From assembly GCF_001561955.1 (NCBI RefSeq), contig NZ_CP014223.1:1922001-1986000 (forward strand): a stretch of DNA of 64,000 bases. Reading direction: 5' to 3'. The notes below the pieces were generated by a model, which did not search any database, was not told the DNA's origin, and saw only the letters and a list, made by a program, of their open reading frames with translations. Positions 4,182 to 54,640 of this stretch are shown here, in pieces (the first letter of the stretch is position 1; every line of letters starts with the position of its first letter). Source of the DNA: Anaerotignum propionicum DSM 1682 (GTDB taxonomy: Bacteria; Bacillota; Clostridia; Lachnospirales; Anaerotignaceae). Both the position numbers and the translations under genes were made by a program.

Positions 4182-4195
4182 AAAAAAATAACTTA
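4165..4195. other. Probable left attachment junction of the ICE
   Basis: Coding similarity of the host-side recombinase stops near the EKYMGDA segment, and within about 30 bases the stop codon of the first ICE recombinase (4193-4195) is reached. The junction must lie in this interval. The core dinucleotide cannot be named without the other end or an empty site. Confidence 0.5.
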
Positions 4196-7410: not shown

Positions 7411-7412
7411 TA

Positions 7413-9074: not shown

Positions 9075-9215
9075 TTTGAAACCTCCATTATGTACCCGAA
9101 AAGATCGGAACGATTGCATCGCAATCGGCATTTTCAAAAAGAAAATGTACTGAGTAAATGTAATTCCCCAAAAACATTCACAATGGATTTTCAAAGGTTT
9201 GCTTATTTGGTTTTA

Positions 9216-13767: not shown

Positions 13768-15594
13768 TTATCTACCAAAAAACTCACTCCAATCAATGCG
13801 ACCTTCAGTCTTATCAGAAGTTTTTTCCTCAATTTGAAATCCTTCAGCCGCCTGCTTATCCAATCGAGAAAAATCCAGCCCCATAGAATCTTCGTTGTTT
13901 CGTCTCTGGAATTCTTTGCGAAGCAACTCTCCAATATTACTAAGTTCCTCCTGCGGTAATCTTACTCGTAAACTTGGAGGTAACTGGACAAAAACAGCCA
14001 ATCTCTGAATTAGAGGCTGCCCAAAAGGATATTCTTCTATTGACAACTGAGAGCATTCAAACTCTAGCTTGTTCGCATATTCTGATACAAAATCGCCCAA
14101 CAACCCACCATAATTCTTACTATAGATATACTCTATCTCAAAGCAAATATCATTTGATTTTTTTGCGAGCAGGTGCAATACCCGCCACTCTTCATCCATT
14201 AGACACAATAATCGATCCCATAGTTGTTTGTCCATTGTAATACCACAAGGAATATTATTTTCAATTTGAATACTCTGTCCATTTTCAACCAAATAGCCAG
14301 AGGCTTTTTTTCCGTTACTCCATTTACCGATATACTTACTTCCATCGCTATAGGTAAACTCTCCGTGTCCCGAAAAAACCCCATCAAAACGACTCTCATC
14401 CTCACTAAAAAAAACACGTCTAAAATTTTGATCACCTATTTTTTTGATTTTAACCTCCATAGGAAATCCTCTTTTGCAACCAGTTTTTTTTCCTTTACTA
14501 AAACCCCCACTATACCAGATTTCACTACCAAGATGTTTATAAATTAAAGTTCCATTTCCATATGGACTTCCTTCCATCCAGTCTCCCTCATAAGATCCAC
14601 CTTCAGCATAAAGCATGCGCCCAAATCCATCCGGCTTATTATTTCTAAACTTCCCTGCAAAGGCATCCCCGTTGCTATAACGCATATCGCCTGTTAAAGG
14701 CTTATTATTCTTGTACCATCCCCGAAACGTGGTACCATCCTCAAAAATTTCTTCACCATATAGTGCTTTCTCACCTTCAATCAGACATCCATGATAAATG
14801 CAATCGCCTTTTTCATTATATATCTTTCCGTCATTATCATGATATTGCAGCTTAAGCCAACTTCCCTGATATACTAACTTGCGTTGATCATTTTGTTCTA
14901 AATAAACCTGACCTTCCCCTAAAAACATATCACTACCGTCCCATGTACCTTCATATACTTTAACTGCAAAAGGATTTGCTGCATCTATTAAAACACCTTC
15001 TTGATAAGGAAGAAAATTTTTTTCCCAGGATGAATAGCGAGAAGTACCGTGATATTCATACTGTTTACCATTAATAGTAAACTTCAAGCAAGTGTCTTTT
15101 TCTTTTTTAGATATTTGTCGGATAGCATCAAACTTCTTACGTACTTCAAACTCTAGAGTTTCTAAAATTTTATCATTCATTTTTTTAATTGAATCACTTT
15201 TCGATGTAAAGGGTATAATATTTTGCCTGCTTAGCCAAACGATAAACTCATCTTCTGCATAGACAGTCATCTGATCATATAGCTGACTTTGCTCAAAATT
15301 ATTAGTCAGCCACAGAAAAAGTATAGCCTTTTGTGCTTCTCTTGCTGTTTCCAATTCTAGACGAACCATATCGTTCTGAGTCTCTACCATTCGTTTAATG
15401 CTTTGACATGTCAATATTGAAACAACCAGCTCAGATTCTTGAATGGCCGTTTTTATTTCTTGAGTGAAATCACCAGACAGCAAAGATTGAGTATCATAAA
15501 AAACACGATGTTTCTGATCACTCAAATCATTGTAAAAAAAATCCACAACTTGTTTATCTTCTCTTCTGTAACTTAAGAATAACTCATAATTCAT
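13768..15594 (-). CDS. TIR domain - MORN repeat protein
   Basis: 608 residues from the ATG at 15594 (GAGAGGTGG upstream); the longer frame to 15642 has no better site. Residues 1 to about 140 are a TIR domain: box 1 ELFLSYRREDK, then HRVFYDTQSLLSGDFTQEIK, and a helix NDMVRLELETAREAQ carrying the likely catalytic glutamate of NAD-cleaving TIRs. Residues about 210-450 hold eight or nine MORN-type repeats (YEGTWDGSDMFLGEGQVY, FAGKFRNNKPDGFGRMLY, YEGDWMEGSPYGNGTL, YIGKWSNGKK). A C-terminal helical domain of about 150 residues is unknown. It lies 54 bases after the membrane RyR gene in one operon. Inference: TIR makes or breaks an NAD-derived signal and MORN gives membrane or partner contact. No named defence system with this pairing is known to me. 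Confidence 0.82.
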   Translation of the reverse strand: MNYELFLSYRREDKQVVDFFYNDLSDQKHRVFYDTQSLLSGDFTQEIKTAIQESELVVSILTCQSIKRMVETQNDMVRLELETAREAQKAILFLWLTNNFEQSQLYDQMTVYAEDEFIVWLSRQNIIPFTSKSDSIKKMNDKILETLEFEVRKKFDAIRQISKKEKDTCLKFTINGKQYEYHGTSRYSSWEKNFLPYQEGVLIDAANPFAVKVYEGTWDGSDMFLGEGQVYLEQNDQRKLVYQGSWLKLQYHDNDGKIYNEKGDCIYHGCLIEGEKALYGEEIFEDGTTFRGWYKNNKPLTGDMRYSNGDAFAGKFRNNKPDGFGRMLYAEGGSYEGDWMEGSPYGNGTLIYKHLGSEIWYSGGFSKGKKTGCKRGFPMEVKIKKIGDQNFRRVFFSEDESRFDGVFSGHGEFTYSDGSKYIGKWSNGKKASGYLVENGQSIQIENNIPCGITMDKQLWDRLLCLMDEEWRVLHLLAKKSNDICFEIEYIYSKNYGGLLGDFVSEYANKLEFECSQLSIEEYPFGQPLIQRLAVFVQLPPSLRVRLPQEELSNIGELLRKEFQRRNNEDSMGLDFSRLDKQAAEGFQIEEKTSDKTEGRIDWSEFFGR

Positions 15595-15648
15595 ATAATT
15601 CCACCTCTCAACTTTTATTTTATTGTAAAAATTATTAAGCAATCAATT

Positions 15649-17067
15649 TCAATGACTGAGTGCCTGCCAATCCTTAATTCTCGCCTCATGGCTCAAATCC
15701 TTATATAACTGCAAATCACAGTGCGTCTGATGAATAGAATCTTTCTTTCCCGGTCGGTAACTCCAATTATGTAAATAATGATAACGACACCAACGAATAT
15801 GTTCTAATTCCGACAGACGTTCTAATAATTCAATGTCATTTAGTGTCCTTGATTCTGCTTTGATTAAAGGTACATTACATTTTTCAAAAGAAGTACTAGA
15901 AATATTTGAATTTCTAGTAAAGGGATCTAGTTCTTCCCATGCTGGAATATTGCTTTCTGGGTGCGCTTGCATATAAGCTTTGTGCTGAAGGCGAGCGTCT
16001 TCGATTAGTTGTTCTTGTAGGATAAATTCCTGACAACATAATTTGTTATAGCTGCCAAAGAGTGTTATCTGCGAGGGGAGAAACTTATCTTGCAGTATAC
16101 CGTCATCCCCAAGCCGAAGGCTAAATTTACATTTAGGTAAAATAGCGTTTATTCTCTGTGCAATATGCAGATTAACTTGCTGGTCATCTTCACACAGAAT
16201 TAGCATATCCATGTCACATAGATGATTTGCCCATTGATACCATGCCTCAGAATGAAAAACAACTCGATCGCCAGGAGAAGCAATGTTGTCCCAATTAAAA
16301 TGCAATGCCTGATATTCAGACCAATCTCCAAACAAATGATATTCAATAGACTGATCCCTAGTATATATGTTGCTAAGCAAACCAAAATAAAGCATTTTTT
16401 CTCCATACAAACCAGCACCAATCAAACAGATCTTAACAGAGCCCGTCTCATAGCATTTGCTACATATCCATTCAGACTGCTTTCTCCAGTACAGTTGCGC
16501 TGTCAAATCAGACAAACTAAACGGATAAAGAGCTAAGCCACTATAATTTAGGACATGCGGACTGAAGTCCTCAAGTTGGATATATACACAATCGCCTGCA
16601 CGGAAACGTTCTAAATTTTCTGAAAAAAAATGCATTGCCTCATCATCATTTTCCAGCATTATAACATGGGTATGCGCTGGTACAAAAACGTTTGTAGAGA
16701 TGACTTTTCGGCGAATCTTCTTTTGGCTAATATCCTCCAGTAAATAATGGGCTGCGCTACCTGTTCCATATATGGCAACAGTATCTGGATATAACAGTTT
16801 CCATTTGATTACAATAGCATTGGAAATTGACTTAATGGTTAAAAAAAGAGTCGTAAATGTCGCAAGAAGAGCCGTCCACCTTGCGACCTCCAAAACTGGA
16901 GTAATATGCTCTAAATCATATTCCATGCCATATAATCGTAGCGAAAAATAGACTGCATTCAGATACTCCTGCGGATATTCCTTTAAGAATCCTACCATAC
17001 CTAATATCAGTGGTACCAAAAGCAACCCACGCAAAAAACAATTTCGTAAAAATGTATTTCTCTTCAT
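15649..17067 (-). CDS. Membrane protein with NAD-binding (TrkA-N-like) and RyR domains
   Basis: 472 residues; GGAGG precedes the ATG. Two membrane segments lie near the N-terminus (about 10-27, LLLVPLILGMVGFL, and about 65-80, ALLATFTTLFLTI). A Rossmann/TrkA-N-like part follows (DTVAIYGTGSAAHYLLEDI at about 94-113 and a second VKICLIGAGLYGEKML). The C-terminus is a RyR-type domain (LSELEHIRWCRYHYLHNWSY, then KKDSIHQTHCDL and YKDLSHEARIKD). Proteins with TM, TrkA-N and RyR parts have been described in predicted nucleotide-signalling conflict systems, where RyR or Rossmann modules may sense ligands. It is the first gene of a two-gene operon with the TIR-MORN gene and is the likely membrane effector or sensor. 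Confidence 0.78.
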   Translation of the reverse strand: MKRNTFLRNCFLRGLLLVPLILGMVGFLKEYPQEYLNAVYFSLRLYGMEYDLEHITPVLEVARWTALLATFTTLFLTIKSISNAIVIKWKLLYPDTVAIYGTGSAAHYLLEDISQKKIRRKVISTNVFVPAHTHVIMLENDDEAMHFFSENLERFRAGDCVYIQLEDFSPHVLNYSGLALYPFSLSDLTAQLYWRKQSEWICSKCYETGSVKICLIGAGLYGEKMLYFGLLSNIYTRDQSIEYHLFGDWSEYQALHFNWDNIASPGDRVVFHSEAWYQWANHLCDMDMLILCEDDQQVNLHIAQRINAILPKCKFSLRLGDDGILQDKFLPSQITLFGSYNKLCCQEFILQEQLIEDARLQHKAYMQAHPESNIPAWEELDPFTRNSNISSTSFEKCNVPLIKAESRTLNDIELLERLSELEHIRWCRYHYLHNWSYRPGKKDSIHQTHCDLQLYKDLSHEARIKDWQALSH

Positions 17068-17398: not shown

Positions 17399-18871
17399 TT
17401 ATGATACTTGCAATTTTGAATTTAACATTTCATTGACACTAGGACAAAATAACTTATCAAATAATATTTGATTTCTTTGAGCTGCATCCCTTACCATTTT
17501 ATCATAAGAAATCACTTCGATATATGCCCCTCTCGGTTGATTGTACCCGTAATAACCTTCCCCGTCTGGTGTTAAGGTTAAACTTGCATTTTCCGCATCT
17601 AATTTCAGTGACTCGGTCATATCCGCTATGACATAGCAATAAAAAGCAGTATTTTTAACGTTCCCAAAATCTCTGCCATTTGCTTTTTTTACTTTCCCAT
17701 TGCGAATATCATTAACATATCCCAAGACCTGATTAATAGGATTTTTATCATCATCTTTCAAGTCATTTCTATTAGGTTTTTTAAGTTCAATAATGGATAT
17801 GGAGTTAAATCTATCTTTTTCAGCTGAAAATGATATAGCTTGATCAAATACAGCTATGTCCATTCTTTTATCAACATCTGTTTCTAATACAGGCAAGGAT
17901 TTCATTTGTTTATCTGAGGCTAAGAACTGATGATATGATAATCTATCATCAATAAGCCACAAATTCATTTCTTCAAACGCAATATCATCCGAAGTATGTC
18001 TCATCGGACATATAATAGAATGTATACTTGCTTCAGAATTATATTTATTATCATCTCTACGTTCTAACGATTTTTCAAGTAATTCCAAAATAGCTTTTCT
18101 ACGTATAACATATTCGGATAAACTTGCTTTACTAATATCCGATACCGAACTACAATACTCATTAAATATTTTATCAAAATCTTCTTGATTAAAATCCCCA
18201 GACTTAACTTTCTTATCGATTTCTTTGGCTTGTTTGTGAATTTCCGCTTCCCATTCTTGAGCAGCTTTATGAAGTTCTAATTCCAGTTTATCCTTCGATA
18301 AGTTTGCTGGTATCATCTTATACAATTCCGGCTTTTTATTTAACAAATATCTGTACTGTGGCTTTTCCTTTTTTACAAAAGAGTTAATGTATTCGCATTT
18401 TTCTTGATTGACTTTTTCCAAATCAGCCCCAAGATATGCCATAATGTATTCTTTCGAAGATTCTACCAGTTCTTTGCCTGATATTGTGTTGAGCAAATCT
18501 GTATCTTCTTCCTCGAATTCAAAAGAAGTTCTATTCATATTAATTTTGCCATCTAAATACGCTCCTATTAAGTAACCAACGTAATAGAAACTTTTTTCAT
18601 CCTCCAAAATAATTTTTCGTTGTAGATCAGGAATATATTTATGTAACTCATAAGATTTTACTTCTCGATTATTTGCACATAGATGTAGTTCATGCTTATT
18701 TATACCTTCTTGCATTTGAATATGATATAGTACAAATTTTTCCCCGTTAATAACAAACTGATCTTGATGTATAGAATCTTTTATATTCCTTTCAAAATAA
18801 TCGTTAAGATTAATTTTTTCATTAAAATTATCCTCTAATATGATTTTGGGACATTTTTCATTGAGATGAAT
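17399..18871 (-). pseudogene. GHKL ATPase - nuclease protein, 3' part
   Basis: About 490 residues continuing the frame of 19922-20515 after the IS30-family element. Joining GAT (19922-19924) to ATT (18869-18871) gives an uninterrupted frame. The middle is helical and charged (LELHKAAQEWEAEIHKQAKE). The C-terminal third has a PD-(D/E)XK-like pattern: RMDIAVFD with an acidic residue, then SIIELKKPNRND (E-x-K), QVLGYVNDI and FYCYVIADMT. A GHKL ATPase fused to such a nuclease fits DNA-processing defence proteins; GHKL ATPases related to MutL and MORC have been reported in restriction-modification operons. A GTG at 18934 inside the insertion sequence could give a short-start product, but that is doubtful. 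Confidence 0.7.
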
Positions 18872-19921
18872 TGTCAAGACAAGTGCGCCACTTCGTGAAG
18901 AAAGACTTGAATGGGGGATTTCCAACCCAAACACTTACGGGGTCTGGAGTTGATGAGAAACAGGTTGTGTGTTAATTCTTCTTGGCAGACCAAAGCAAGG
19001 TTTGTTTTCTTAGGATAAAACTCCCGTAGTAGCCCGTTGGAATTCTCGTTGCTTCCACGTTGCCATGAAGAATAGGCATCGGCAAAATAGAGTGTTAAGC
19101 CTAATTGATCTTGAATGGCGGTACAGCAAGCAAACTCTTTACCACGGTCTGTTGTTCCAGTTTGAAAAGCACCCTTTGGGAGGATATTGTAAAGTGCAGT
19201 AATGGCTGTTTGCATAGAAGAAGCAGTTCGGTCTGGTGTCTTGAAAGCAGTGTACAGACGACTTTTCCTTTCTACAAAGGTAGCAAAGCACCCTTTGCTT
19301 TCTCCACGGCTGGAAACCATACTGTCTAGTTCCCAGTGGCCAAAAACTTCTCTGCTTTTGACCTCGTGTGGTCGCTCAGAGATGGGGATTCCCATAGAAA
19401 ACTTACCACGCTTTTCAGTCTTTCTGCGCCTACCCTTTTGCCGTAGGTTCCGCACGGTAACTGCTGAAAGAACACCAGAATAAAGCCAATTGTATATGGT
19501 TTTAAAACTGACGATTCCTAACGTTACTGTGTTGGCTATTTGTTCCGGTGACCAAGTTGCCCACAGCTTTTCTGTGATGGTAGTAACCAAATCATCTGTG
19601 CGCTTTCCCTTGGGTTTAGAATGTTTGCGTCGAGTACTGTATGCAACCTGTGCATGCTCACCGCCATAGCCTTCACTGGTCGCATTGCGGTGAATCTCAC
19701 GGTCAATACTCGAACGATGGCGACCTAGCCTTTCCGCTATTTTTCTGTGCGAGTAACCTAGTGACAATAATTCTTCTATCCTGCCGCGCTCATATGTGGT
19801 AAAATGGTGGTAGCTCATACTGTTGCCTCCGTTTGAATGTTGTCTAGACAACTCCATTCTACACGTAGTTTTCAGTATGGGCTATTTTTTACCCTATATC
19901 TCTGGCGCACTTCATTTTACA
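18872..19921 (-). mobile_element. IS30-family insertion sequence
   Basis: 1050 bp with terminal inverted repeats: plus strand at the left TGTCAAGACAAGTGCGCCA, minus strand at the right TGTAAAATGAAGTGCGCCA. The dinucleotide AT flanks both ends (18870-18871 and 19922-19923), a possible 2-base target duplication. It splits the GHKL ATPase gene. Simple excision without removing AT keeps the host gene in frame, so either the duplication or the ancestral frame needs checking. Confidence 0.82.
18874..19818 (-). CDS. IS30-family transposase
   Basis: 314 residues from the ATG at 19818 (GGAGG nine bases upstream). The N-terminus is the IS30 helix-turn-helix (YHHFTTYERGRIEELLSLGY, RKIAERLGRHRSSIDREIHR). 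The DDE core has D in FGHWELDSMVSS, D in GTTDRGKEFACC and E in RGSNENSNGLLREF. Full length and apparently intact. It is in the same orientation as the gene it interrupts. Confidence 0.93.
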   Translation of the reverse strand: MSYHHFTTYERGRIEELLSLGYSHRKIAERLGRHRSSIDREIHRNATSEGYGGEHAQVAYSTRRKHSKPKGKRTDDLVTTITEKLWATWSPEQIANTVTLGIVSFKTIYNWLYSGVLSAVTVRNLRQKGRRRKTEKRGKFSMGIPISERPHEVKSREVFGHWELDSMVSSRGESKGCFATFVERKSRLYTAFKTPDRTASSMQTAITALYNILPKGAFQTGTTDRGKEFACCTAIQDQLGLTLYFADAYSSWQRGSNENSNGLLREFYPKKTNLALVCQEELTHNLFLINSRPRKCLGWKSPIQVFLHEVAHLS

Positions 19922-20515
19922 ATCTATCTTGAGAAAATAAAGTAAGCAATGTTCTATAATTTTTCTCCCCAGAAGTTCCAAGGAAATTGGTGCTTTTGTT
20001 TTATATTTATAAGCAAAGTTAGTTAACTTGACTCTCGTCAGGAAATTTCTTTCATCTGTTATTGCAGTGTTATTTTCTGGCTCTATCCCTTTATCAGCAG
20101 TAAAATCGAATTCTCTTTTATACCATTCATTCTTTAGTTTAAATACACTTTTTATATGAACGCTGGAAAAAGCCTTAAGCCATAAAAATCTGCCAATGCC
20201 TTTGCAACCTTTTTCAATTTTCAAGCTTGAATAAGCTTCCAAAAAAGAATCATAATTTGTATCATTAGATCCATTCCCATTATCAATTACTTCAAATTCA
20301 TAAAATGGCGTTATTTCTTCTTTGCCTTTAAGATCAAGCTGTCTTTCCGAAGTGCGATTTGCAATGATGGTTATCTCTCCATTTTCTGCATTAAATGAAT
20401 CTTCTAATGATTGAATTGAATTAACTATTGTCTCAAAAAGCGGCCATAGCGCTTTATAAGCTGGCAAACTAACAGTATTTACTTGCCCTTTAATATTAAT
20501 TTTAAAATTATTCAA
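19922..20515 (-). pseudogene. GHKL ATPase - nuclease protein, 5' part
   Basis: Reads from a TTG at 20515 (AGAGGGGG upstream) as MNNFKINIKGQVNTVSLPAY; the longer ATG frame to 20554 lacks a site. Histidine-kinase-like ATPase motifs are clear: N-box KALWPLFETIVNSIQS, G1 box EVIDNGNGSND, and G2-type KGCKGIGRFLWLKAF. This is the HSP90/MutL/MORC type of ATP lid. The reading frame enters the IS30-family element and stops at 19889 within it. With the 3' part the protein would be about 690-700 residues. It follows the type III restriction operon by about 350 bases and may once have worked with it. Confidence 0.75.
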
Positions 20516-20603
20516 ATCATTACCCCCTCTCCAATTCATTACATTATAATCCATTTTTATAATAATTTCTATGATTTCCCACTACTATATTCATAAAAAT
20601 ATA

Positions 20604-20627
20604 AGCCCTCGGTTTTACACCGAAGGC
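20604..20627 (-). terminator. Hairpin after a stranded gene end
   Basis: Imperfect stem GCCCTCGGT (20604-20612) / ACCGAAGGC (20619-20627). On the minus strand it is followed by a T-rich run. It lies about 20 bases beyond the stop of the gene remnant at 20646-20760. Confidence 0.55.
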
Positions 20628-20645
20628 ACTGTTTTTGCTATCTTT

Positions 20646-20760
20646 AATTACTATTCTTTCCCCTGCCCCAATTCCGCCTCCAACTCCAATCCATCCTCAA
20701 ATAAAAGCCCCACATGCTTGGCGTGCTTGACCAACACCTTCTCCCCCAATGTCCCAATAA
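20646..20760 (-). pseudogene. Stranded 3' end of an unknown gene
   Basis: The minus strand reads GTLGEKVLVKHAKHVGLLFE, then DGLELEAELGQGKE and a stop, with no start and no upstream body. Its end matches the tail near 17299-17398, so the same gene end occurs on both sides of the GHKL gene. The family is not recognised. Confidence 0.5.
20670..20702. repeat. 33-bp near-direct repeat, right copy
   Basis: Partner of 17320-17352, with three differences. See the left copy. Confidence 0.7.
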
Positions 20761-20863
20761 TTAATCATCAAATTCATGCAAAGGCTCCTTATTCTCACAA
20801 TAACACCCGATGTTTACAAAACACTATATACTTCGCTTATAACTGAAATAATACAAAGCATTT

Positions 20864-21109
20864 CTACAGTTTAATACCCAACGTTACCTTTTCAATTTGC
20901 CGTCCTTCTAATTCTCTTCTTAAACTTTTTGCTTTTTCCTCAAGGTAAGTAATTCCGTCCTCTATGGACATTTTATTAACTAATTCCTTTTCTTTTTCAC
21001 GTTCTTCTTTTCCCTTTTTATTCACCTGAAACTCCCTATTAATTATTTCAATTTTATCAATTTTTTCATCCAAACATTCCTTAATAATCAATGCCACTTT
21101 CCATCCCAT
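20864..21109 (-). CDS. Small coiled-coil protein, unknown
   Basis: 81 residues. The start (MGWKVALIIKECLDEKIDKI) overlaps the end of the PC4-like gene by 29 bases in another frame, a sign of translational coupling. The body is very rich in K and E (KKGKEEREKEKELVNKM ... YLEEKAKSLRRELEGR) and should form a coiled coil. No family is recognised. By position it is the last gene of the type III restriction operon. It may be an accessory subunit or a chance frame; coupling and a coding-like composition favour a real gene. Confidence 0.5.
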   Translation of the reverse strand: MGWKVALIIKECLDEKIDKIEIINREFQVNKKGKEEREKEKELVNKMSIEDGITYLEEKAKSLRRELEGRQIEKVTLGIKL

Positions 21110-21314
21110 TCAGCAAATCTTTTAATTTTTTCAATTCCTCGGCAGTAATAGTTACTCCCTTTCCCATCTTTTCATGTTCAGGTGACCATTCTCGGATGTC
21201 ATATTTGGGGTCTCTTTCGTTCCAAGAGATTAGGTTCAGTTCTTTCGTCCAACCTTTTGCATTCTCAGATAATACTCCAATTTCTTTTACTATGTCATAT
21301 TTAATGTCTGCCAT
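21081..21314 (-). CDS. YdbC/PC4-like single-strand nucleic-acid-binding protein
   Basis: 77 residues from the ATG at 21314 with AGGGGG upstream; the longer frame to 21344 has no site. The sequence ADIKYDIVKEIGVLSENAKG, WTKELNLISWNERDPKYDIR, and EWSPEHEKMGKGVTIT followed by an LKKLKDLL helix matches the YdbC family. These are bacterial relatives of the transcription coactivator PC4 that bind single-stranded DNA or RNA as dimers. It directly follows the Res gene (31 bases), so it may help the restriction complex handle unwound DNA; that role is inferred from position only. Confidence 0.82.
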   Translation of the reverse strand: MADIKYDIVKEIGVLSENAKGWTKELNLISWNERDPKYDIREWSPEHEKMGKGVTITAEELKKLKDLLNGMESGIDY

Positions 21315-21345
21315 GTAATTTCCCCCTGCTCCACACTCTTTCAAA

Positions 21346-24300
21346 TCAAATTGTGTCTTTCACGCCAAACTTTTTTCTAAAATCCTCATAAGAATTGACC
21401 CAATCAAATTTAACCAAGTCTGATACTGCCTGAAAATGCAATTCACCACAATGGATTTTATTTATTTCAACATCGGTTAAGTCTTTCTCAGCCTTATCAG
21501 CCTTTGTTTCAACAATAAAGTAAATCCCTACAGCACCTTCTTCCAATCCTTCTTTTCTGCAAACAATCGCCCAGTCTGGAGAGTAATTGCCATAAGGAGT
21601 ATCTATTACAAAGCCACCTTTTTTCAATTTTGTAAACAAAACAATATTTTCATTTGCTTCCAACTTTTCTGCAAATGCTTTTTCGCCTTTGCTATCCATT
21701 TTATAGTACTCATTTAAAGCATTTTTCCTGTTTGGACTTGATTTAAAAACTCGCCATTCTTCATTAAAATCCTCTTCGTTAATAGTATCTATAGCAAAGA
21801 TTTGCCCTTCTTCCAGCTCATAACCATCAATTACTTCATAAGAAGAAATGTTTGCTGCTTTTGCATTATTTAATCCCACTAAAATCTTTTGTGTTATTTT
21901 GTCTAGGATATCTTGAAAGTTAAGAGCTTCTCTTTTTTCTATGCCATGTAATATTTTAAAGATGGCAAGTCGTGGCAACATTGTATGATACATAATATAG
22001 TTCACAATTTCAAAATCACTCTTAGGCGCAACTTTAATCCCCACCTCAAGATCAAATGTCTTGTCTCCGGACTTCTCCATTGCAAACATTTGAGCATCAT
22101 TAAATCCAGCTTTGCCTGTAACAATATTCACTGCTTTGTTAATTTTAAAAAATTGTAAATACGTGTTTATTTCTTTAATGCAACCTTCAATAAATTTTTC
22201 TTTATCCACCTTACACTTATAAAGAGTACGCTTTTTCAAACTATTAAATAAGCCAAAATAGATTTTCTGGAACTCATATTCAGATACAAACGCACGAATT
22301 GTATTCACATACGGCTCATTATCACCATTTTTAATTTCGATACGATGTGAGCCTTTTTGCACCATAAGCTTTGCGAAATATTCTTTTAAATTTATAGCGT
22401 GTTCTTTCAGAATTTCATCTTCAAAAACAATGTCGGCAAGAAGTTTCGTTGTTTGTTCTATATTTTTATTCAAAATATTGTTACTGTCAAAAATCCCTTT
22501 ACGAATAAGCTCCTGCTTAAAAGTATCAACCAGTTCAGCAGTTATTTTTTCTTCTGGAACACCTGCTTTTTCAAGCGTAACGGTTAAAATATCCGCTGTC
22601 ACTTCATTCTGATTAAAGTTCATACTCTGATTAAAGTCTTCTTGTAGTACTCTTGAAAAATTCTCATAGCTGTCATTTGCTATAACGGTCAATTCGTTTA
22701 CCTCTGCATCTAAGCAACGATTGCCCGTAATATCCACCGGCAGTCTTAAACCTCTACCAATTTCCTGTTTCTTTGCAATATCAGAGCTTCCATTTTTTAG
22801 TGTGCAAAGCGTAAATACATTAGGATTATCCCAACCTTCACGCAGTGCTGAATGTGAGAAAATAAAACCAAGTGGTTCCTCAAAAGAAATAAGCTCGTCT
22901 TTTTTTTCAAGAATCAAGCTAATCCCACGATCAATATCTTCTTGTGACTTAGCCTTTATCTCCATCTCGCCTTTGCTATCGTCCCAGTCCTCAATTTCCA
23001 CTTCATTCTTCTTTTTATCAAGCGCAAAATACCCCTCCCGAACCTTTAAAACATCTTGATATTCAGGGAAATATTCTTTATATTTCTCTATTTGATTTTC
23101 GTATGTTTTTATTGCCTCTGCATATTCCTCGTCAAAAATCCGTAGATATTCCCCTCTGCCATCAGGACGGCTATGATCTCTAACTTTGCGTACAGCATCA
23201 ACAAAGAATAGGGTCAAGGCTTTCATTCTCTTGCCACTTTTTAAAATAGACAACTGTTTTTCAAAATGATTTTTAATTGCAAGTCTAATTTGAATACGAG
23301 TTGCCTCGCTATCTTCAAGCCCATTATTGCTTTCTCCCAGTTCAAGGGTAATCATACCCTCTGTTGTTGAAATTTTTAAAGGCTTTTGCTTATGAGGTTC
23401 TTCCGCCACACGCATATTTCTATATTGCACCAGGCCACCCGATAACTCCTCAAGAGAAGTGTTAGCTGAAACATCAAAGCTTTTAAAGCGAATAGAATCC
23501 CCTTGCTTTTGGGAAAACATCTCGATTCTTGCTTTTAAATCCTTCGTAAAAGCAACATATCGAATGTAGGGATAATCTTTTTCTATAATCCCATTGACAG
23601 TCTTGACCTGTATTTTCTTAACCAAATCATCTTTATACGCAGTATAGGAATCCAGCTTATAAATTTGATTATACAACTGTTTATGCGTCGCTGAATACCG
23701 CAATACAAACAAAGGCTCAATATCTTCAATGGCTTGTAAGGACTTAGATTTCTTACCTTTTTGACCCTCAATTTTTTGTGGTTCATCTATAATAACAATG
23801 GGTTTTATGTACTTGATATCCTCCCACAAGATCTGTCCGTATTCATCTTCGGTACGAATTTTATTGGTATCCTTATTAAAGACTTGAATATTCATTACAC
23901 AAATGCTCAAATCATTGGTTTCAATAAGGCTTGAACTAATCTTTTTCGGGATATTGCTATCATAAATAAAGCTATGTTTCGATAAATCCACATCATAAAG
24001 CCTTTTAAAATGGTCTTTTAGCTGTTCAATGGATTTTTCCACGCCTTTTCGGATTGCAATACTTGGAACGACAATCATAAACTTTTTAAAGTCATATTCC
24101 TTGTAAAGCTCCAATATGGTACGAAGATACACATAGGTTTTGCCTGTGCCAGTTTCCATTTCAATGGTAAAGTTATTATTGGCAAGGGCATTATCCGCAA
24201 ACAGCTTATTTTCAAGCTGTACTTCTCTTAGGTTTTGCAGCAATCTACTGCCTGTTACAATGCTTTGATTTCTTACAGGATCACCCTCACCGACTTTTTT

Positions 24301-24429
24301 GGTACGGTTTGTTCGATAAATACCATCTGTTTGACGAGGAAGTCCCTGAAACAATTTCACAGTAGACTTAATTGCTTGTAATTGATAGTCCAATTCATCA
24401 TCAAATTGGAACGCAATTCTTTTTGCCAC
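21346..24429 (-). CDS. res: Type III restriction enzyme, Res subunit
   Basis: About 1027 residues from a GTG at 24429 (GGGGG eight bases upstream; the GTG at 24435 is too close). It is a superfamily 2 helicase: Walker A METGTGKTYVY near residue 95-100, VVIDEP-type motif II (VIIDEPQKIEG), SATH motif III, and motif VI EIGRGLRLPVD. The C-terminus has the endonuclease pattern SPDWAIVCRKEG ... FIVETKADK (D...E-x-K). Length and order are those of type III Res proteins, which translocate after Mod binds a site and cleave unmodified DNA. It begins 13 bases after the Mod stop. No broken motif is seen, so it is probably active. Confidence 0.92.
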   Translation of the reverse strand: MAKRIAFQFDDELDYQLQAIKSTVKLFQGLPRQTDGIYRTNRTKKVGEGDPVRNQSIVTGSRLLQNLREVQLENKLFADNALANNNFTIEMETGTGKTYVYLRTILELYKEYDFKKFMIVVPSIAIRKGVEKSIEQLKDHFKRLYDVDLSKHSFIYDSNIPKKISSSLIETNDLSICVMNIQVFNKDTNKIRTEDEYGQILWEDIKYIKPIVIIDEPQKIEGQKGKKSKSLQAIEDIEPLFVLRYSATHKQLYNQIYKLDSYTAYKDDLVKKIQVKTVNGIIEKDYPYIRYVAFTKDLKARIEMFSQKQGDSIRFKSFDVSANTSLEELSGGLVQYRNMRVAEEPHKQKPLKISTTEGMITLELGESNNGLEDSEATRIQIRLAIKNHFEKQLSILKSGKRMKALTLFFVDAVRKVRDHSRPDGRGEYLRIFDEEYAEAIKTYENQIEKYKEYFPEYQDVLKVREGYFALDKKKNEVEIEDWDDSKGEMEIKAKSQEDIDRGISLILEKKDELISFEEPLGFIFSHSALREGWDNPNVFTLCTLKNGSSDIAKKQEIGRGLRLPVDITGNRCLDAEVNELTVIANDSYENFSRVLQEDFNQSMNFNQNEVTADILTVTLEKAGVPEEKITAELVDTFKQELIRKGIFDSNNILNKNIEQTTKLLADIVFEDEILKEHAINLKEYFAKLMVQKGSHRIEIKNGDNEPYVNTIRAFVSEYEFQKIYFGLFNSLKKRTLYKCKVDKEKFIEGCIKEINTYLQFFKINKAVNIVTGKAGFNDAQMFAMEKSGDKTFDLEVGIKVAPKSDFEIVNYIMYHTMLPRLAIFKILHGIEKREALNFQDILDKITQKILVGLNNAKAANISSYEVIDGYELEEGQIFAIDTINEEDFNEEWRVFKSSPNRKNALNEYYKMDSKGEKAFAEKLEANENIVLFTKLKKGGFVIDTPYGNYSPDWAIVCRKEGLEEGAVGIYFIVETKADKAEKDLTDVEINKIHCGELHFQAVSDLVKFDWVNSYEDFRKKFGVKDTI

Positions 24430-24442
24430 AGTCACTTCCCCC

Positions 24443-26362
24443 TTATATAAACTCTACGGTATAAGTTTTTTTCGTGAGCCCTGAATTTCTTTCAACAAGA
24501 TTTTTTAGTCGTCTAAAGGTTTCATCCTTTAGGTTAATATCATCTTTAAAAGAGGAATCTCTAAAGATAAACTTAATGGGCAATGGGTCAAGTGCTGCCA
24601 GCTTATCAATCAAATCCACTGTAATTTCTGTTTCAAGGCAAACCAAATAAGCACTGCCATACAAATAGGTTCTGCCGCCAATATCCATTAATGTTTCCAA
24701 GGTTGCAGAAAGCGGTACGTCTTTTTGACGAAGCATTACTTCATACACAACATCTACATCCTTCACCCCATGGAAAAAGTCCATCAAATCAATATTGGGA
24801 GATTCTGCTGTATCCAAATTGATTTCCGCAGTTGAATTTCTAATGTTCCATTTAATGTTGGTGTCTGCTGTACGGAATACTTTAAAACCGATGTCAGGCA
24901 CTTGCTTTGGTTCTTCACCAAGTTTAAGCTGTGCATTGGCAGTTTCAATTTCTTCTTTGAGTTTTTCGCCAGCACGGCGAATACGTTCTTTGCCTATTTC
25001 GCATATATTTTTAAACCCTGTATTAGATGCCTCGCTATTTTTATCAGTTTCTTCTGCTACTTGCACCATTATAAATTTACGGTTTCCACCATCTTCTGCG
25101 TTTAACTGCATAACTGCGTGGGCAGTTGTGGCTGAACCTGAGAAAAAGTCTAGAATAATATCTTTATTATTAGTCCCATGGTAAGTTAATCGTCTAATAA
25201 TTTCAATTGGCTTAACTGTTTCAAATCCATGGGTTCCTAATAATGATGTCAATTCTTTTTTCGCACTTTCTGCTGTTCCTAATTCTTTAGTAAACATTCC
25301 CCAAAAAGGTTCTGTCTTTTCATTCCGTTCATATGACGGCCGCATCTTTATAATTACTTTATCATCACGAATAAATAAATCACCTGCATTTTTATAAATT
25401 GAAACCTGTTCTTGACCGATTTGCCACTGTTTCCCCTCTGGAAGTGAAACTGTGGCAACACCATCGCTAATATCAAAAATCATAGTTTCCCTGCCACGGA
25501 TACCGTTAGCGTTCATTACCTCTAGAATATGTTCACGATACACACCATTTTTATCATTTAATGGATATTTTTTTTCTCCACTTTTAATTAAATTAAATCG
25601 TCTTTTCTCTTTTTTTGAATATACAAATATCATTTCAGCTTTGGGCTGCAATTTATTAAAAGATGTTTCTGTATTTTGCGATTTTGTTTTCGACTCCCAA
25701 TATATTTCACCAATAAAGGCATCTCTTCCAAATATTTCATCCATTATAGCTCGAAGATTAAAGTTTTCGTTGTAATCAATTGAAATGAATATAACACCAT
25801 CATCCTTCAATAGATCTTTTGAAAGTTTTAAAACTGGATATATTTCATCAAGCCATTTAGCATGGAACAAATTAGAGGATTTCTGATTTTTCACCATTAA
25901 ACTACTCGCATCATCTCTTATATCTTCTAAAATATCGCTTTGTATTCTATTCATTCTACGTTTATCATTATAAATATAGTCATCACCAGTATTATACGGT
26001 GGGTCAATGTAAATCATTTTGATTGCACCATAGTAGTTTTGACGAAGAAGTTTTAACACCTCAAGGTTATCACCCTCGATATATAGGTTTTCGGTAGTTT
26101 CAGGGTTTTTGCTATCCGCTTCAATATATTTTAGGGTTCTGTTATAAACATCTTCTTGTGCTTTTTTCTTCGCATTTTGCTTGCCAGCCCAAGTAAGCTC
26201 GTATTTTTCTTTGCCAACTTCCTCAAATTGACCTAGCTCATCTTTCAAAGCCTCAAAGTCAACTTGTCCATCTTTCACAGCAGAAGGAAATAGCTGTGCT
26301 AGTAGTTTTACATTATCACCGACAACGTTATTTATCTCTTGTGGTACTTTTGTGTAGTCCAT
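24443..26362 (-). CDS. mod: Type III modification methyltransferase, Mod subunit
   Basis: 639 residues; GGAGG six bases before the ATG. The adenine-methylase motifs are in type III order: catalytic DPPYNTGDDY at 120-129, then the target-recognition region of about 250 residues, then the AdoMet pocket LDFFSGSATTAHAVMQLN. The C-terminal part (VEFI end) matches the Res-contact region of Mod proteins. It lies between the DUF4391 and Res genes in one operon with spacings of 7-18 bases. It should methylate a non-palindromic site and direct Res. The recognition sequence cannot be read from the protein. Confidence 0.93.
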   Translation of the reverse strand: MDYTKVPQEINNVVGDNVKLLAQLFPSAVKDGQVDFEALKDELGQFEEVGKEKYELTWAGKQNAKKKAQEDVYNRTLKYIEADSKNPETTENLYIEGDNLEVLKLLRQNYYGAIKMIYIDPPYNTGDDYIYNDKRRMNRIQSDILEDIRDDASSLMVKNQKSSNLFHAKWLDEIYPVLKLSKDLLKDDGVIFISIDYNENFNLRAIMDEIFGRDAFIGEIYWESKTKSQNTETSFNKLQPKAEMIFVYSKKEKRRFNLIKSGEKKYPLNDKNGVYREHILEVMNANGIRGRETMIFDISDGVATVSLPEGKQWQIGQEQVSIYKNAGDLFIRDDKVIIKMRPSYERNEKTEPFWGMFTKELGTAESAKKELTSLLGTHGFETVKPIEIIRRLTYHGTNNKDIILDFFSGSATTAHAVMQLNAEDGGNRKFIMVQVAEETDKNSEASNTGFKNICEIGKERIRRAGEKLKEEIETANAQLKLGEEPKQVPDIGFKVFRTADTNIKWNIRNSTAEINLDTAESPNIDLMDFFHGVKDVDVVYEVMLRQKDVPLSATLETLMDIGGRTYLYGSAYLVCLETEITVDLIDKLAALDPLPIKFIFRDSSFKDDINLKDETFRRLKNLVERNSGLTKKTYTVEFI

Positions 26363-26379
26363 TTTTTTCCTCCATAAAC

Positions 26380-27096
26380 TTATATTTTATCTAATTCGGA
26401 AATGAATTGCCTAATTTCCTGATTTAACTGCATTTTCTCCCTATTGGATATGGATTTTTGCACATTTTCTTTATTGACTGCAATTTGATACAGCAATTTA
26501 TATACCTCTATTACTGTACGTTCATTATACCATATTGGCTTTGATAGAAAAGACTTTATATTTGCATACAATTTATCATTCATAAGAATATAGGCTCGTA
26601 CATAAATTTCTAAATAAAACGCTACTTTGTTGGTTTTGTTTTTGATATTGTCAAAGGAAAGCTCATTTTGCAAGGTGTTTTTCTCAAAACTAGGCATTGC
26701 TATGGGGTATCCCCCAGTAAGCAGCTTATCTGTAACCACAATCTGCGTTTTATCATTCTGATTCAGTCGTTTCAGTGCAAAAGAATATACTTCATTCCTG
26801 CTGTCATATAATCGAAGCACACAGGGAGACTTTATGATTTCTTGATAGAGATTGGCTACAAAAGCAGCTTTTTTTATATCCGCAAGCTCAAAATCATAAA
26901 ACTGAATCACTTGACAGTTATATTCTTCATTTGCCAAAGAATGAATATCCTCCCCCATAACTTGATCGGCAAGGACAACGCTCTTTACGATATCTTTTAT
27001 CTTCTTTTTTAATTCGGGTTTGAAATCCTTTGGAATAAAGTCCTTCATTGGTATTTTTTTGCCCACTTTATATTGATTCGGTAAATTAAACATCAC
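26380..27096 (-). CDS. DUF4391 family protein
   Basis: 238 residues starting MMFNLPNQYKVGKKIPMKDF. The start overlaps the helicase stop by four bases, so the two are coupled. Features such as FIPKDFKPELKKKIKDIVKS, LANEEYNCQVIQFYDFEL and NKVAFYLEIYVRAYILMN fit DUF4391. This family is regularly found between an SNF2-type helicase and a type III Mod gene. Function unknown; it may be an adaptor between helicase and methylase. Confidence 0.82.
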   Translation of the reverse strand: MMFNLPNQYKVGKKIPMKDFIPKDFKPELKKKIKDIVKSVVLADQVMGEDIHSLANEEYNCQVIQFYDFELADIKKAAFVANLYQEIIKSPCVLRLYDSRNEVYSFALKRLNQNDKTQIVVTDKLLTGGYPIAMPSFEKNTLQNELSFDNIKNKTNKVAFYLEIYVRAYILMNDKLYANIKSFLSKPIWYNERTVIEVYKLLYQIAVNKENVQKSISNREKMQLNQEIRQFISELDKI

Positions 27097-30000
27097 TCCA
27101 CCACCAAAAATGAAATCAACTCAAAGTCATCCGCTGTTTCTTCCCCAAAGGCATTATTAAATCCCCCGAAATCAAAGGTTGTTTGAATTGCTTTTTCTTC
27201 CTCTTTGCCTTTGATGGAGTTTACTGCTTTATTAATAAGCTCAGAGTAAATTTTCATATCTCTTGTATTATTTGTTCTGCTAAAAAATTGGTTAACCAGT
27301 TGTGCAACAGGCTCCCTTTTCCCATAGCAAAGCTTTCTAAAAATCTTAACCACTTCTCGAGCCTTTCCATTCCCATAAAGCACCTCACCGTTATTATCAA
27401 GGTAAATTAAATAATATGGATACAGGGAACTATCAGACTTTGGCCTATCCTGAAGATTACTATGCTTGAAGCAGAATAAAACACCTTGCCTTTCGCCATC
27501 CGTTACAGAATACACGCCCCTTGGCACTTTTTTTATTTCCGGCGTTCTACTTACATAATCTGATAATTCATACAAATATTCATTCATATTAAGGTCGGTA
27601 AGAGATATATTTTCATTGGCATCTTCAATATCAATGACTTCTTTTTGCAGACGTTCCAACTGCCTTTTCCTAAAATTAAAATCATTCATTTCAGGAGTAA
27701 GATCATCCTCATCCCCTGTGGACACTAAGTTCAAGACCGTCATTTTCCCTTTCACCCGTTGCTCCAGCCCTAAATATTCATTCAATTCTACATTTGGGAA
27801 AAAATTAATCATTTGAATTTTCTCATTGGTGCTACCAATACGGTCAATTCGTCCAAAACGTTGAATCAAGGATACAGGATTCCATTGAATGTCAAAGTTG
27901 ATAACGGTGTCGCAATCTTGTAAATTCTGTCCTTCGGAAATACAATCAGTGCCAATTAAAATATCTATTTGCTCCTCTTGTGGAATTTCCTTTTTCATTT
28001 TGGATTTTGGAGAAAAAGCACATAATACATCATTAAAATCAGCTTCCACATTTCGATTATTCACCTTTATATTTGAACCGCTGATACTGGCTGTATATAA
28101 TCCGCTCTTTAATAACTCTTTATTTATTTTGTTGTAGATGTAGTTGATGGTATCAGCAAAAGCTGAAAAAATCAAAATCTTTCTATTCCCCAGGTTATAG
28201 GGTGTTTCTGTCACTTTCTTTGCAATGACATCTTCTAGAACCTTTATTTTTTTATCCCTATCATAATCAAGAATTGTTTTTGCATCCTCATATATTAGCT
28301 GCAATACTTCTCTGTCGTTTTCAAGATCATATAAATAGTCATTCACTCTTAAATGCTTGACATCTATTTCATATTTGCCGTCAAGGAATATATCTTCTCC
28401 ATTTTCATCGTCTACATCATATTCCTCAACTCGACCGCCGCTTTCCAAAATTGCAACCGTCCTGTCAATGCGATCAAGAAGTCTATGTAATGTTTCTGCA
28501 AAAGAATAAACAGAACTTTCCAATCTCTTAAAAAGGTTAAATCTATGAAGCACAATCATTCCTTTTGCCTGTGTTGTGAAATCCATATTACCGCCACGTT
28601 TGCCCTTGGCATTGTATTTTTTTGCATACATAGGAACAAACTCGCTCTTAATATACTTCGTTGGTGTGTATACACTAAGATTCAACTGCTCTAATATGTC
28701 ATTTGCTTCTTTAAATTTCAATAATTGATTCTCTGAATCAATTTCGGGGGAGTAGGTAAGCGGAACATTTTTGTCAGGAAATTTACCCACTTTATTATCA
28801 CCATAGTAATTTGTAATATGTTTCCTACTTCTAGATATGGTCATCATTTCCAAGAGTTTATAAAATTCTGATGGCAAACTGTCCAACAACTCGTCTTTTT
28901 TATGATTTCTATTTTTCTCCCAAGTATTGATTACAGCAGAAGATTTTCTCATTAAATTATCCACGCTTTGGACTCCATATTCTTCAAATGCAAAATCATG
29001 GTCAGCCGTAATAATACTAATTTGATTCTTTAAGTCAACCAAACTATTATTGACGGGTGTTGCAGAAAGCAAAAGTACCTTTGTATTATTTTTACCTTTT
29101 AGAATTACTTCCTGAAGAAGTCTTGCATACCTTGTCATAATTAGCTGGTCATTTTCGTCATATCTATCATTGCGATTTCTGAAATTATGGGATTCATCAA
29201 TAACCACTAAATCATAATTACCCCAATTAAACCGTTTTAAATCTTCACCTGAAGTTGACATTCCTTTATATCTTGACAAGTCGGTATGAAACATAATTTT
29301 ATAATTAAAGGATTCTTTCAAAAAACTATCTTTATAAGTTCCTCTGAAGGATTTCCAGTTATCATAAAGCTTGGCAGGTGTAAGCACCAATACATTATCC
29401 ATTTTTATTTCAAAATACTTTATAATTGCAAGGGCTTCAAAGGTTTTACCCAAGCCAACAGAATCAGCAATGATACAACCTCTGTATTTTTGCAACTTTT
29501 GAATTGCCGAAACTACACAATCTTTTTGGAAGTCATAAAGAGAATTCCATATTTCAGTTTTTTTGAATTTATCACTGTCCCGTTCAAATCTTTCCACGCC
29601 ACTATCAAGTTGATACCCAAACAATTCGTTTAAAGTAAAATAATATAAAAATTCTGGTGCATGTTCCTTGTATACATACTCAAGACTTTGCAATAATTCT
29701 TCTTTATAATCAGACGATACCTGTTCATTAAACCAAATTTGATTGAAAAGATTTAATGCTGAAAGTATCTGTTCTTTATCCATTGTACCATTTAACATAG
29801 TATCAAAGTTTATATTCCTAAATGAATTATACTGTTTTTTAGGGGATACCTCCAAAGAAGATGACCCTTGTATCATAAAATCATCATCTATAATTATTAC
29901 ATTCCCACCAATTTTAATTTTAGGATTTACCTTTTTAACATTCACATTTTTCTTTATAAAATCGTGCATGGATTTTGCCTTCGCAAAATGTTTCAACTTA

Positions 30001-30269
30001 TTTTTTTCTACGATATCATAAGAGTTATAAAGAATATCATTTGGCGTCATTTCAAACTCATGCGTTATTTCAGTTTGATTTGGAACAAATTTTGTATCAC
30101 GAATTACAAAGTTAATCTCTTTAACATTTTTTAAATTTTGCTCCAACAAAGCAAAAACAGATATTGTTAATTTATCATTTACAATATTGATAACTGCATT
30201 TTTTTTGTTTTTCAGAATTTCATTTATTTTATCTATCATCTGCTCATTTGAACCAATGACATTCCCCAT
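27093..30269 (-). CDS. SNF2-type helicase of the type III restriction island
   Basis: About 1058 residues from the ATG at 30269 (GGAG eight bases upstream). An N-terminal part of about 240 residues includes an FMIQGSSSLEVS segment that may be phospholipase-D-like. The SF2 core follows: ADSVGLGKTFEALAI, DESHNFRNR, LLLSATPVNNS, IGTDCISEGQNLQDCD and QRFGRIDRIGS. These are SNF2/RapA-like motifs. The C-terminal 200 residues are unknown. It is the first gene of the operon with DUF4391, Mod and Res and has its own promoter at 30319-30347. A remodelling or clearing role before restriction is inferred. Confidence 0.88.
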   Translation of the reverse strand: MGNVIGSNEQMIDKINEILKNKKNAVINIVNDKLTISVFALLEQNLKNVKEINFVIRDTKFVPNQTEITHEFEMTPNDILYNSYDIVEKNKLKHFAKAKSMHDFIKKNVNVKKVNPKIKIGGNVIIIDDDFMIQGSSSLEVSPKKQYNSFRNINFDTMLNGTMDKEQILSALNLFNQIWFNEQVSSDYKEELLQSLEYVYKEHAPEFLYYFTLNELFGYQLDSGVERFERDSDKFKKTEIWNSLYDFQKDCVVSAIQKLQKYRGCIIADSVGLGKTFEALAIIKYFEIKMDNVLVLTPAKLYDNWKSFRGTYKDSFLKESFNYKIMFHTDLSRYKGMSTSGEDLKRFNWGNYDLVVIDESHNFRNRNDRYDENDQLIMTRYARLLQEVILKGKNNTKVLLLSATPVNNSLVDLKNQISIITADHDFAFEEYGVQSVDNLMRKSSAVINTWEKNRNHKKDELLDSLPSEFYKLLEMMTISRSRKHITNYYGDNKVGKFPDKNVPLTYSPEIDSENQLLKFKEANDILEQLNLSVYTPTKYIKSEFVPMYAKKYNAKGKRGGNMDFTTQAKGMIVLHRFNLFKRLESSVYSFAETLHRLLDRIDRTVAILESGGRVEEYDVDDENGEDIFLDGKYEIDVKHLRVNDYLYDLENDREVLQLIYEDAKTILDYDRDKKIKVLEDVIAKKVTETPYNLGNRKILIFSAFADTINYIYNKINKELLKSGLYTASISGSNIKVNNRNVEADFNDVLCAFSPKSKMKKEIPQEEQIDILIGTDCISEGQNLQDCDTVINFDIQWNPVSLIQRFGRIDRIGSTNEKIQMINFFPNVELNEYLGLEQRVKGKMTVLNLVSTGDEDDLTPEMNDFNFRKRQLERLQKEVIDIEDANENISLTDLNMNEYLYELSDYVSRTPEIKKVPRGVYSVTDGERQGVLFCFKHSNLQDRPKSDSSLYPYYLIYLDNNGEVLYGNGKAREVVKIFRKLCYGKREPVAQLVNQFFSRTNNTRDMKIYSELINKAVNSIKGKEEEKAIQTTFDFGGFNNAFGEETADDFELISFLVVE

Positions 30270-30318
30270 ACAAAAAACTCCAATCCTATGCAATTTTTTA
30301 CAAAAATCAACCCTTTAT

Positions 30319-54568: not shown

Positions 54569-54598
54569 TCGCTCCTCCTTAAATTTGATTTTGGACAT

Positions 54599-54640
54599 AA
54601 AAAATCCCGACACAAAGAGGTTTGCCCTTGTATTGGGATT
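54599..54640 (-). terminator. Terminator/attenuator hairpin just before the giant gene
   Basis: Arms AATCCCGACACAA (54603-54615) and TTGTATTGGGATT (54628-54640). On the minus strand it is followed by six Ts, about 30 bases upstream of the ribosome site of the giant gene. One of three related palindromes (also 54897-54926 and 55461-55498). Confidence 0.65.

Follow-up and report, generated by a model that had tools for sequence, protein, structure and literature searches.

The type III cassette and its genes

The stretch of DNA analysed here (the window, 64,000 nucleotides in all) spans positions 1922001-1986000 of the complete 3.12 Mb chromosome of Anaerotignum propionicum DSM 1682 and contains an extended type III restriction cassette with a gene of the PC4/YdbC family directly behind the restriction-subunit gene. 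The cassette is transcribed from the minus strand in the order HEL (helicase), DUF4391, Mod, Res, PC4 and a small open reading frame (ORF) of 81 amino acids (aa). The first cassette gene, HEL (27093-30293, minus), encodes an SNF2/DrmD-like superfamily 2 (SF2) helicase with SNF2-rel_dom and Helicase_C domains and the motifs GLGKT and DESH. It matched the PADLOC profile C3a139, 'HKD+Snf2' (E 3e-211), but the HxK motif is absent from the aligned phospholipase D (PLD)-like N-terminal stretch of the window HEL and 31 aligned relatives, and HEL was therefore rejected as an HKD (PLD) nuclease. The second gene (26380-27096, minus) encodes a DUF4391 protein (E 2e-43), whose relatives keep the same position and whose structure model, built from 3 sequences, reached a mean predicted local distance difference test (pLDDT) score of 57.8. 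It is followed by the type III DNA methyltransferase Mod (24443-26362, minus; N6_N4_Mtase, PADLOC MTase_III 4e-155), which has a DPPY motif, and by the type III restriction subunit Res (21346-24435, minus; ResIII and RE_endonuc, the latter at 1.3e-24; PADLOC REase_III 2e-190). Res joins an SF2 motor, with GTGKT at residue 96 and DEPQ at 217, to a PD-ExK nuclease domain formed by PDWA at 953 and ETK at 976. Thus, a Mod of the type III kind adjoins a Res with both ATPase and PD-ExK motifs, which identifies the pair as type III. Since the genes for HEL and DUF4391 share 4 nt and only 7 nt separate Mod from Res, the cassette reads as one operon.

The PC4/YdbC-family gene lies at 21081-21314 (minus; PF02229, 1.5e-12). 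The listed ORF begins at 21344, while the likelier start is the ATG at 21314, 31 nt past the Res stop codon. The product is a full-length YdbC-type protein, which resembles the solved structures of YdbC (2ltd/2ltt), SP_0782 (2l3a/5zkl) and 3pm7 over nearly its full length (E 5e-27 to 2e-19). YdbC and SP_0782 are single-stranded DNA (ssDNA) binders, and by its sequence the window protein belongs to this PC4/YdbC ssDNA-binding family, with ssDNA binding as its predicted activity. Two more intact PC4 genes occur elsewhere in the same genome in other settings, and the closest relative of the window PC4 (89%, genome G007) is fused to what appears by eye to be the end of an HsdS gene. All five genes named by the original prediction (SNF2 helicase, DUF4391, Mod, Res and PC4) were confirmed by domain or profile matches, and the run is indeed more than a plain Mod-Res pair, with PC4 as its odd member, as had been remarked.

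The distribution of the first four genes was surveyed in two genome samples. In the order sample, DUF4391 was found in 22 of 295 genomes. The stretches around 20 of the 27 matches were retrieved, the other seven being the window itself and six matches that were weak or fragmentary; Res was present in 15 of these 20, with Mod beside it every time, and in three stretches that were cut (L029, L032 and L038) the helicase was still visible. In the class sample, any match to Res was found in 65 of 391 genomes, and 34 matches had E below 1e-70. All 33 of these outside the window were examined. As 11 of the 34 loci are cut by contig ends and their upstream DNA is missing, 23 were evaluable (window counted), and 17 of them have HEL and DUF4391 upstream of Mod. 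The other six (L053, L060, L066, L068, L072 and L073) lack this pair, and four of them have a weakly similar helicase. The same four-gene order, annotated as helicase, DUF4391, methyltransferase and helicase, was found on plasmids of E. coli, E. faecium and Acinetobacter; plasmids of Aeromonas and Rhizobium have other genes where the block would be, and a plasmid search for near-identical copies of the window block was empty. Consequently, the order helicase-DUF4391-Mod-Res represents an extended type III cassette that is common and occurs in unrelated hosts, and the helicase-DUF4391 pair is the usual companion of this type III family, not a peculiarity of this locus. No description of the four-gene block was found among the titles and abstract openings listed in the literature search, and DUF4391 occurs in one paper, as a line in an enrichment table.

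PC4 genes behind restriction-subunit genes

At 13 loci a PC4 gene lies on the same strand directly behind an R-subunit gene, with a stop-to-start distance of -1 to 85 nt. Five of these are Res-PC4 pairs: the window, L030, L048, L049 (PC4 cut by a contig end) and L190 (a viral contig), where Res is 77%, 34%, 32% and 59% identical, respectively, to that of the window. The remaining eight are pairs of PC4 with the type I subunit HsdR, namely L083 (a Niallia plasmid, as annotated), L082 (HsdR broken), L107, L129, L187, L188, L191 and L196. The HsdR partners span subfamilies, with a HindI-like C-terminus in L187 and L082 and EcoR124_C in L196. The PC4 fragments of L037 and L186 and the broken PC4 genes of L192 and L207 are omitted from the 13, and the contig of L189 begins at PC4. 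Looser arrangements were also found: PC4 lies 1.7 kb behind Res in L046, 1.5 kb behind HsdR in L099, behind HsdS in L108 and ahead of HsdM in L084, and in L192 and the near-identical L207 it stands one gene beyond HsdR with its frame broken. Decayed Res-PC4 junctions were seen in L037, L186 and L042, the last of which is in the window's own genome (G000:C1, about 1903061-1903276), at a distance of some 40 kb from the cassette. Besides Res and HsdR, helicases that carry an MTES_1575 nuclease domain (PADLOC PDC-S37) are a third kind of partner; one stands beside PC4 in L085, where the domain was shown, and others in L030/L213 and L204, where the partner was called by BLAST similarity to that of L085. 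The fourth kind, a PLD-helicase with an Eco57I-type methylase, was found in L127.

To judge this proximity against chance, the class sample was used, in which PF02229 is present in 142 of 391 genomes with about 156 matches. PC4 lies within 2 kb at 4 of the 34 Res loci, and at 3 of 33 if the window is excluded, while about 0.02 is expected, assuming a mean genome size of 2.6 Mb (an estimate) and an even spread of genes. Similarly, PC4 lies within 2 kb downstream in four cases among the 150 HSDR_N rows listed, where the same assumptions give about 0.02 (155 HsdR genes were used for this expectation, which has no material effect). Two of the four are direct neighbours, one stands at 1.5 kb and one lies past a 236-aa gene with a broken PC4 frame. 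Thus, the proximity of PC4 to restriction genes is far above chance and PC4 is not an accidental neighbour. A survey of neighbours had been proposed for PC4, the small ORF and the GHKL gene downstream, and only PC4 came through it; the small ORF proved an orphan in the sequences searched and the GHKL gene unlinked in the homologues examined (see below).

The contexts were also examined from the side of PC4. The class sample of PC4 loci consisted of 80 hand-picked loci, about one per genus, of which 76 were recognised by the profile; L087, L101, L112 and L124 were excluded from the context counts. Among 12 relatives on viral contigs, five stand directly behind HsdR or Res, one is one gene off, one is on a contig starting at PC4, and in the other five none of the searched genes was found nearby. 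Of 38 plasmid records, 14 were examined; PC4 lies beside type I genes in three, beside an MTES_1575-type helicase in two and in conjugation operons in two, the rest being three Listeria records filed as plasmids and four unresolved or other contexts.

A tree of 102 PC4 rows and 69 columns was made, with L049 omitted as too short. The 18 rows linked to restriction-modification (R-M) genes, directly or within about 2 kb, are scattered over the tree and need at least 12 changes on it, so their origin as a single clade was rejected. On this tree the type I remnant of G007 stands nearest to the PC4 of the window. In genome G536, two sister PC4s with 62 of 69 residues alike were found, one behind Res (L048) and the other behind HsdR (L129). 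These sisters and the scatter of the linked rows suggest that PC4 has probably become attached to R genes several times and been passed between restriction types.

Several further genes accompany PC4. Members of a family of 173-180 aa, alike by eye, occur at L046:13101-13640, L163:252-773 and L194:245-763, with a type III Res in two of the three; the L046 and L194 members matched nothing in Pfam or PADLOC. In the closely related loci L107 (3946-4878) and L187 (6134-7045) and, by eye, also in L108, the gene after HsdR-PC4 encodes a nuclease-like protein; that of L187 corresponds to PADLOC PDC-S11, and that of L107 has weak RAMA, SduA_C and NucS matches. On viral contigs, PC4 is followed by proteins of about 1190 aa that are alike by eye (L190:3312-6878 and L193:1251-4835), and the one in L190 has no match in PADLOC and none above the cut-off in Pfam. 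In L213 (G138:C1:1372000-1386000), Res-PC4 is followed by the helicase-MTES_1575-like gene and then by five genes, read by eye as a WYL regulator and a four-gene Wadjet-like set, which together form a stacked defence island near conjugation genes.

Possible roles of PC4 in the cassette

Considering these results, we think it rather probable that the locus is an extended type III cassette, carried as cargo of an integrative conjugative element, to which PC4 was added behind Res as an optional ssDNA-binding accessory of ATP-driven restriction nucleases. PC4 would move horizontally among type III Res, type I HsdR and helicase-MTES_1575 partners, and it looks like a shared, undescribed accessory of type I and type III restriction systems. 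In type III systems Mod methylates one strand of the host sites and Mod-Res, driven by ATP, cuts incoming DNA between two unmodified sites in inverse orientation, and the window pair would act likewise, while the helicase and DUF4391 would form a second ATP-driven module. PC4 would bind single strands exposed by the motors and nucleases of the system, or by host nucleases and resection after cutting, and its binding would either promote destruction of the target or limit its repair. The partners of PC4 are recurrently of helicase or translocase type, mostly with a nuclease domain, which speaks more for a partner that handles ssDNA than for a simple regulator. The linkage itself is observed; the specific role as ssDNA partner of ATP-driven restriction nucleases is put forward tentatively. 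Still more tentative is the wider proposal that, throughout Bacillota and Fusobacteriota, defence nucleases driven by a helicase or translocase have PC4/YdbC as a general partner for handling ssDNA, a plug-in across type I, type III and helicase-MTES_1575 systems, and that restriction there may act on single-stranded intermediates as well as through double-strand cuts.

Several observations weigh against this interpretation. No PC4 is present at L184, the closest Res relative found (87%), and the gene is also missing within 2 kb at 30 of the 34 class Res loci, some of which are truncated by contig ends; the PC4 gene is thus optional, not obligate, in type III loci. Most of the PC4 genes examined sit away from R-M genes, and an R-M gene of the searched kinds was found in only 7 of the 76 class stretches (up to 14 kb), a count that is a lower bound, since the reference set covers few R-M families (in addition to the seven, L163 is the opposite end of the type III locus in G661). 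Two annotated Listeria records place PC4 beside a hydrolase gene. The 13 direct pairs are not 13 independent events, because L082, L107, L187 and L188 form one close group, and about ten distinct R-PC4 arrangements are left after grouping. The PC4 tree is poorly resolved: it has few columns, many open forks, unsettled bootstrap values and no shuffled control. As for the four-gene block, two of the 20 DUF4391 loci, L035 (at a contig start) and L036, contain no helicase, Mod or Res.

The main rival to an ssDNA partner is a brake or protector, in which PC4, by binding ssDNA or by nicking or relaxing DNA, would temper the restriction of the host's replicating DNA or of an incoming element, in the manner of restriction alleviation or anti-restriction. 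Precedents for such a role exist, as AcrIIA22, a protein of PC4 fold from mobile regions of clostridia, introduces nicks into supercoiled plasmids and hampers Cas9 (PMC8545432, excerpts), and ArdC, an ssDNA-binding protein of plasmids, overcomes HsdRMS (PMC7213743, excerpts). The window PC4, however, is a full-length YdbC-type protein, and we regard a braking role as somewhat doubtful.

The setting of the cassette bears on a further explanation. The window contains a relaxase gene (40724-42106, PF03432) as well as genes recognised by eye as those of serine recombinases (3270-9194) and of a VirB4-like ATPase (62702-63901). The presence of these conjugative-element genes around the cassette indicates that it is probably the cargo of an integrative conjugative element. 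PC4 could then serve the element itself, binding the transferred single strand, and be found near R-M genes since both are cargo. Besides the relaxase of the window, a VirB4-like gene seen by eye in L030 and the two plasmids with PC4 inside conjugation operons, which also speak against a role tied to restriction, are consistent with this explanation. On the other hand, PC4 is downstream of the R gene, on the same strand and within -1 to 85 nt in all 13 direct pairs, and the linkage recurs across different R families, while random cargo would be expected on either side and either strand (reverse placements were not searched as such, and the PC4 of L084 precedes HsdM). Service to the conjugative element therefore seems unlikely as the reason for the linkage.

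A controller-like function of PC4 as transcription regulator of the R-M operon appears less likely again. Plasmid records annotate PC4 with a transcription-regulation term and controllers are common in R-M systems, but PC4 is at the end of the operon and its relatives with structures are binders of ssDNA.

Other features of the conjugative region were noted. A group II intron (47221-49868) with a reverse transcriptase/HNH maturase lies between the large ORFs 42995-47185 and 49919-54613, which by eye look like fragments of a single gene for a polyvalent protein belonging to the conjugative element. The ORF 13768-15642 encodes a protein with a TIR domain and a weak match to MORN, and the next one, 15649-17067, a protein that matches RyR weakly and appears membrane-bound by eye; these two are possibly another defence pair.

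Adjoining genes and comparison with known systems

The 81-aa ORF (20864-21109, minus) overlaps the end of PC4, matches no family and perhaps does not belong to the system as a gene. It was not found in any of the 144 other relatives or in the viral contigs, and as an orphan without relatives outside its own genome in the searched sequences it was rejected as a partner, contrary to its proposed part in the machine. Between it and the next gene piece there are 309 nt, which include a terminator-like hairpin with a T-rich tail (20627-20605, minus), a possible end of the transcription unit that was identified by consensus match only; 12 such hairpins were found in the region versus 7.9 in shuffles. 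The GHKL-ATPase/nuclease gene noted beyond it is not intact: its two parts are separated by an IS30-family element. The N-terminal, paraMORC3-like ATPase part covers 19930-20554 (minus; ORF 19889-20554 ends inside the element) and the C-terminal part with the D...ExK nuclease motif 17399-18863 (minus; ORF 17399-18934), and in alignments the two pieces match the respective parts of intact homologues. These are proteins of 680-689 aa from Eubacterium uniforme and a Lachnospiraceae metagenome-assembled genome, to which the C part is 57-59% identical. The element (18864-19929, minus, ends approximate) encodes a transposase at 18874-19857 (NF033563, 2e-79), has terminal inverted arms of 27 bases with 78% complementarity (18864-18890 and 19903-19929) and is single-copy in the genome, apart from a 77% fragment. 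The paraMORC3 motifs DNGEG, KGIGR and RMD...ELKK were recognised by eye in the homologues L040 and L041, and variants of them in the window pieces; the Pfam HATPase_c_3 match of L041 is weak (only 0.0024), and the GHKL structure model, from 2 sequences, has a pLDDT of 42.9.

The GHKL protein was matched in 8 of the 295 order genomes and occurs together with DUF4391 (22 of 295) only in the window genome and G221, where the two are on different contigs. Around seven GHKL homologues (L208-L212, L040 and L041; G005 and G118 are outside this set) no type III protein was matched. The GHKL gene is a separate gene, not part of the restriction system, and its proposed role as a further layer was rejected. 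It is therefore very improbable that the small ORF and the GHKL nuclease belong with the cassette to a single multi-protein machine, given the split gene, the intervening hairpin, the orphan ORF and the unlinked homologues, even though both genes adjoin the cassette in the window, L040 and L041 lie among genes that look by eye like defence islands, and frequent linkage to R-M operons is described for GHKL proteins of MORC/paraMORC type (PMC2292703, excerpts). In the same excerpts (Iyer et al., 2008), paraMORC3 is a GHKL protein with a C-terminal restriction-endonuclease-fold nuclease, found with R-M systems and partly standalone; the window gene, paraMORC3-like by motif and description, has variants of the GHKL ATPase motifs and a C-terminal D...ExK motif and is split by IS30.

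The helicase core of HEL resembles those of DISARM DrmD, HmaA and PLD-helicases. Membership in DISARM was rejected, as HEL scored 139.8 bits against DrmD, where the NCBIfam cut-off is 610, and no DrmB or DrmC match was among the profile matches listed for the block; its similarity to DrmA is 1.2e-18.

To our knowledge, type I and type III restriction is usually treated as complete with R, M, S or Mod subunits. If such an accessory, shared by both types behind their R genes, is real, it would offer a handle on the fate of DNA after ATP-driven cutting and on how hosts avoid self-damage at single-stranded regions, and YdbC, a family with several solved structures, gains a testable context. The helicase-DUF4391 pair is likewise a frequent type III companion for which no description was found in the literature searched. 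The four-gene block is of an already known kind; none of the titles and abstract openings listed in the search reports a linkage between PC4/YdbC and restriction genes of type I and type III. Excerpts of a review that tabulates type III enzymes as R2M2 contain no mention of a 'third subunit' or 'accessory' (PMC3874151).

Among the relatives of PC4, YdbC, SP_0782 and 3pm7 are of the same family, and no R-M role was found for them, whereas the window protein sits directly behind Res. AcrIIA22, compared by description only, shares a PC4-like fold and a location in clostridial mobile regions but differs as a 7 kDa nickase without the C-terminal helix (PMC8545432). Compared with type III enzymes of the EcoP15I/EcoP1I kind, which likewise consist of a Mod with an N6/N4-methyltransferase domain and a Res with an SF2 motor and PD-ExK nuclease, the window cassette adds the helicase and DUF4391 genes upstream and PC4 behind Res.

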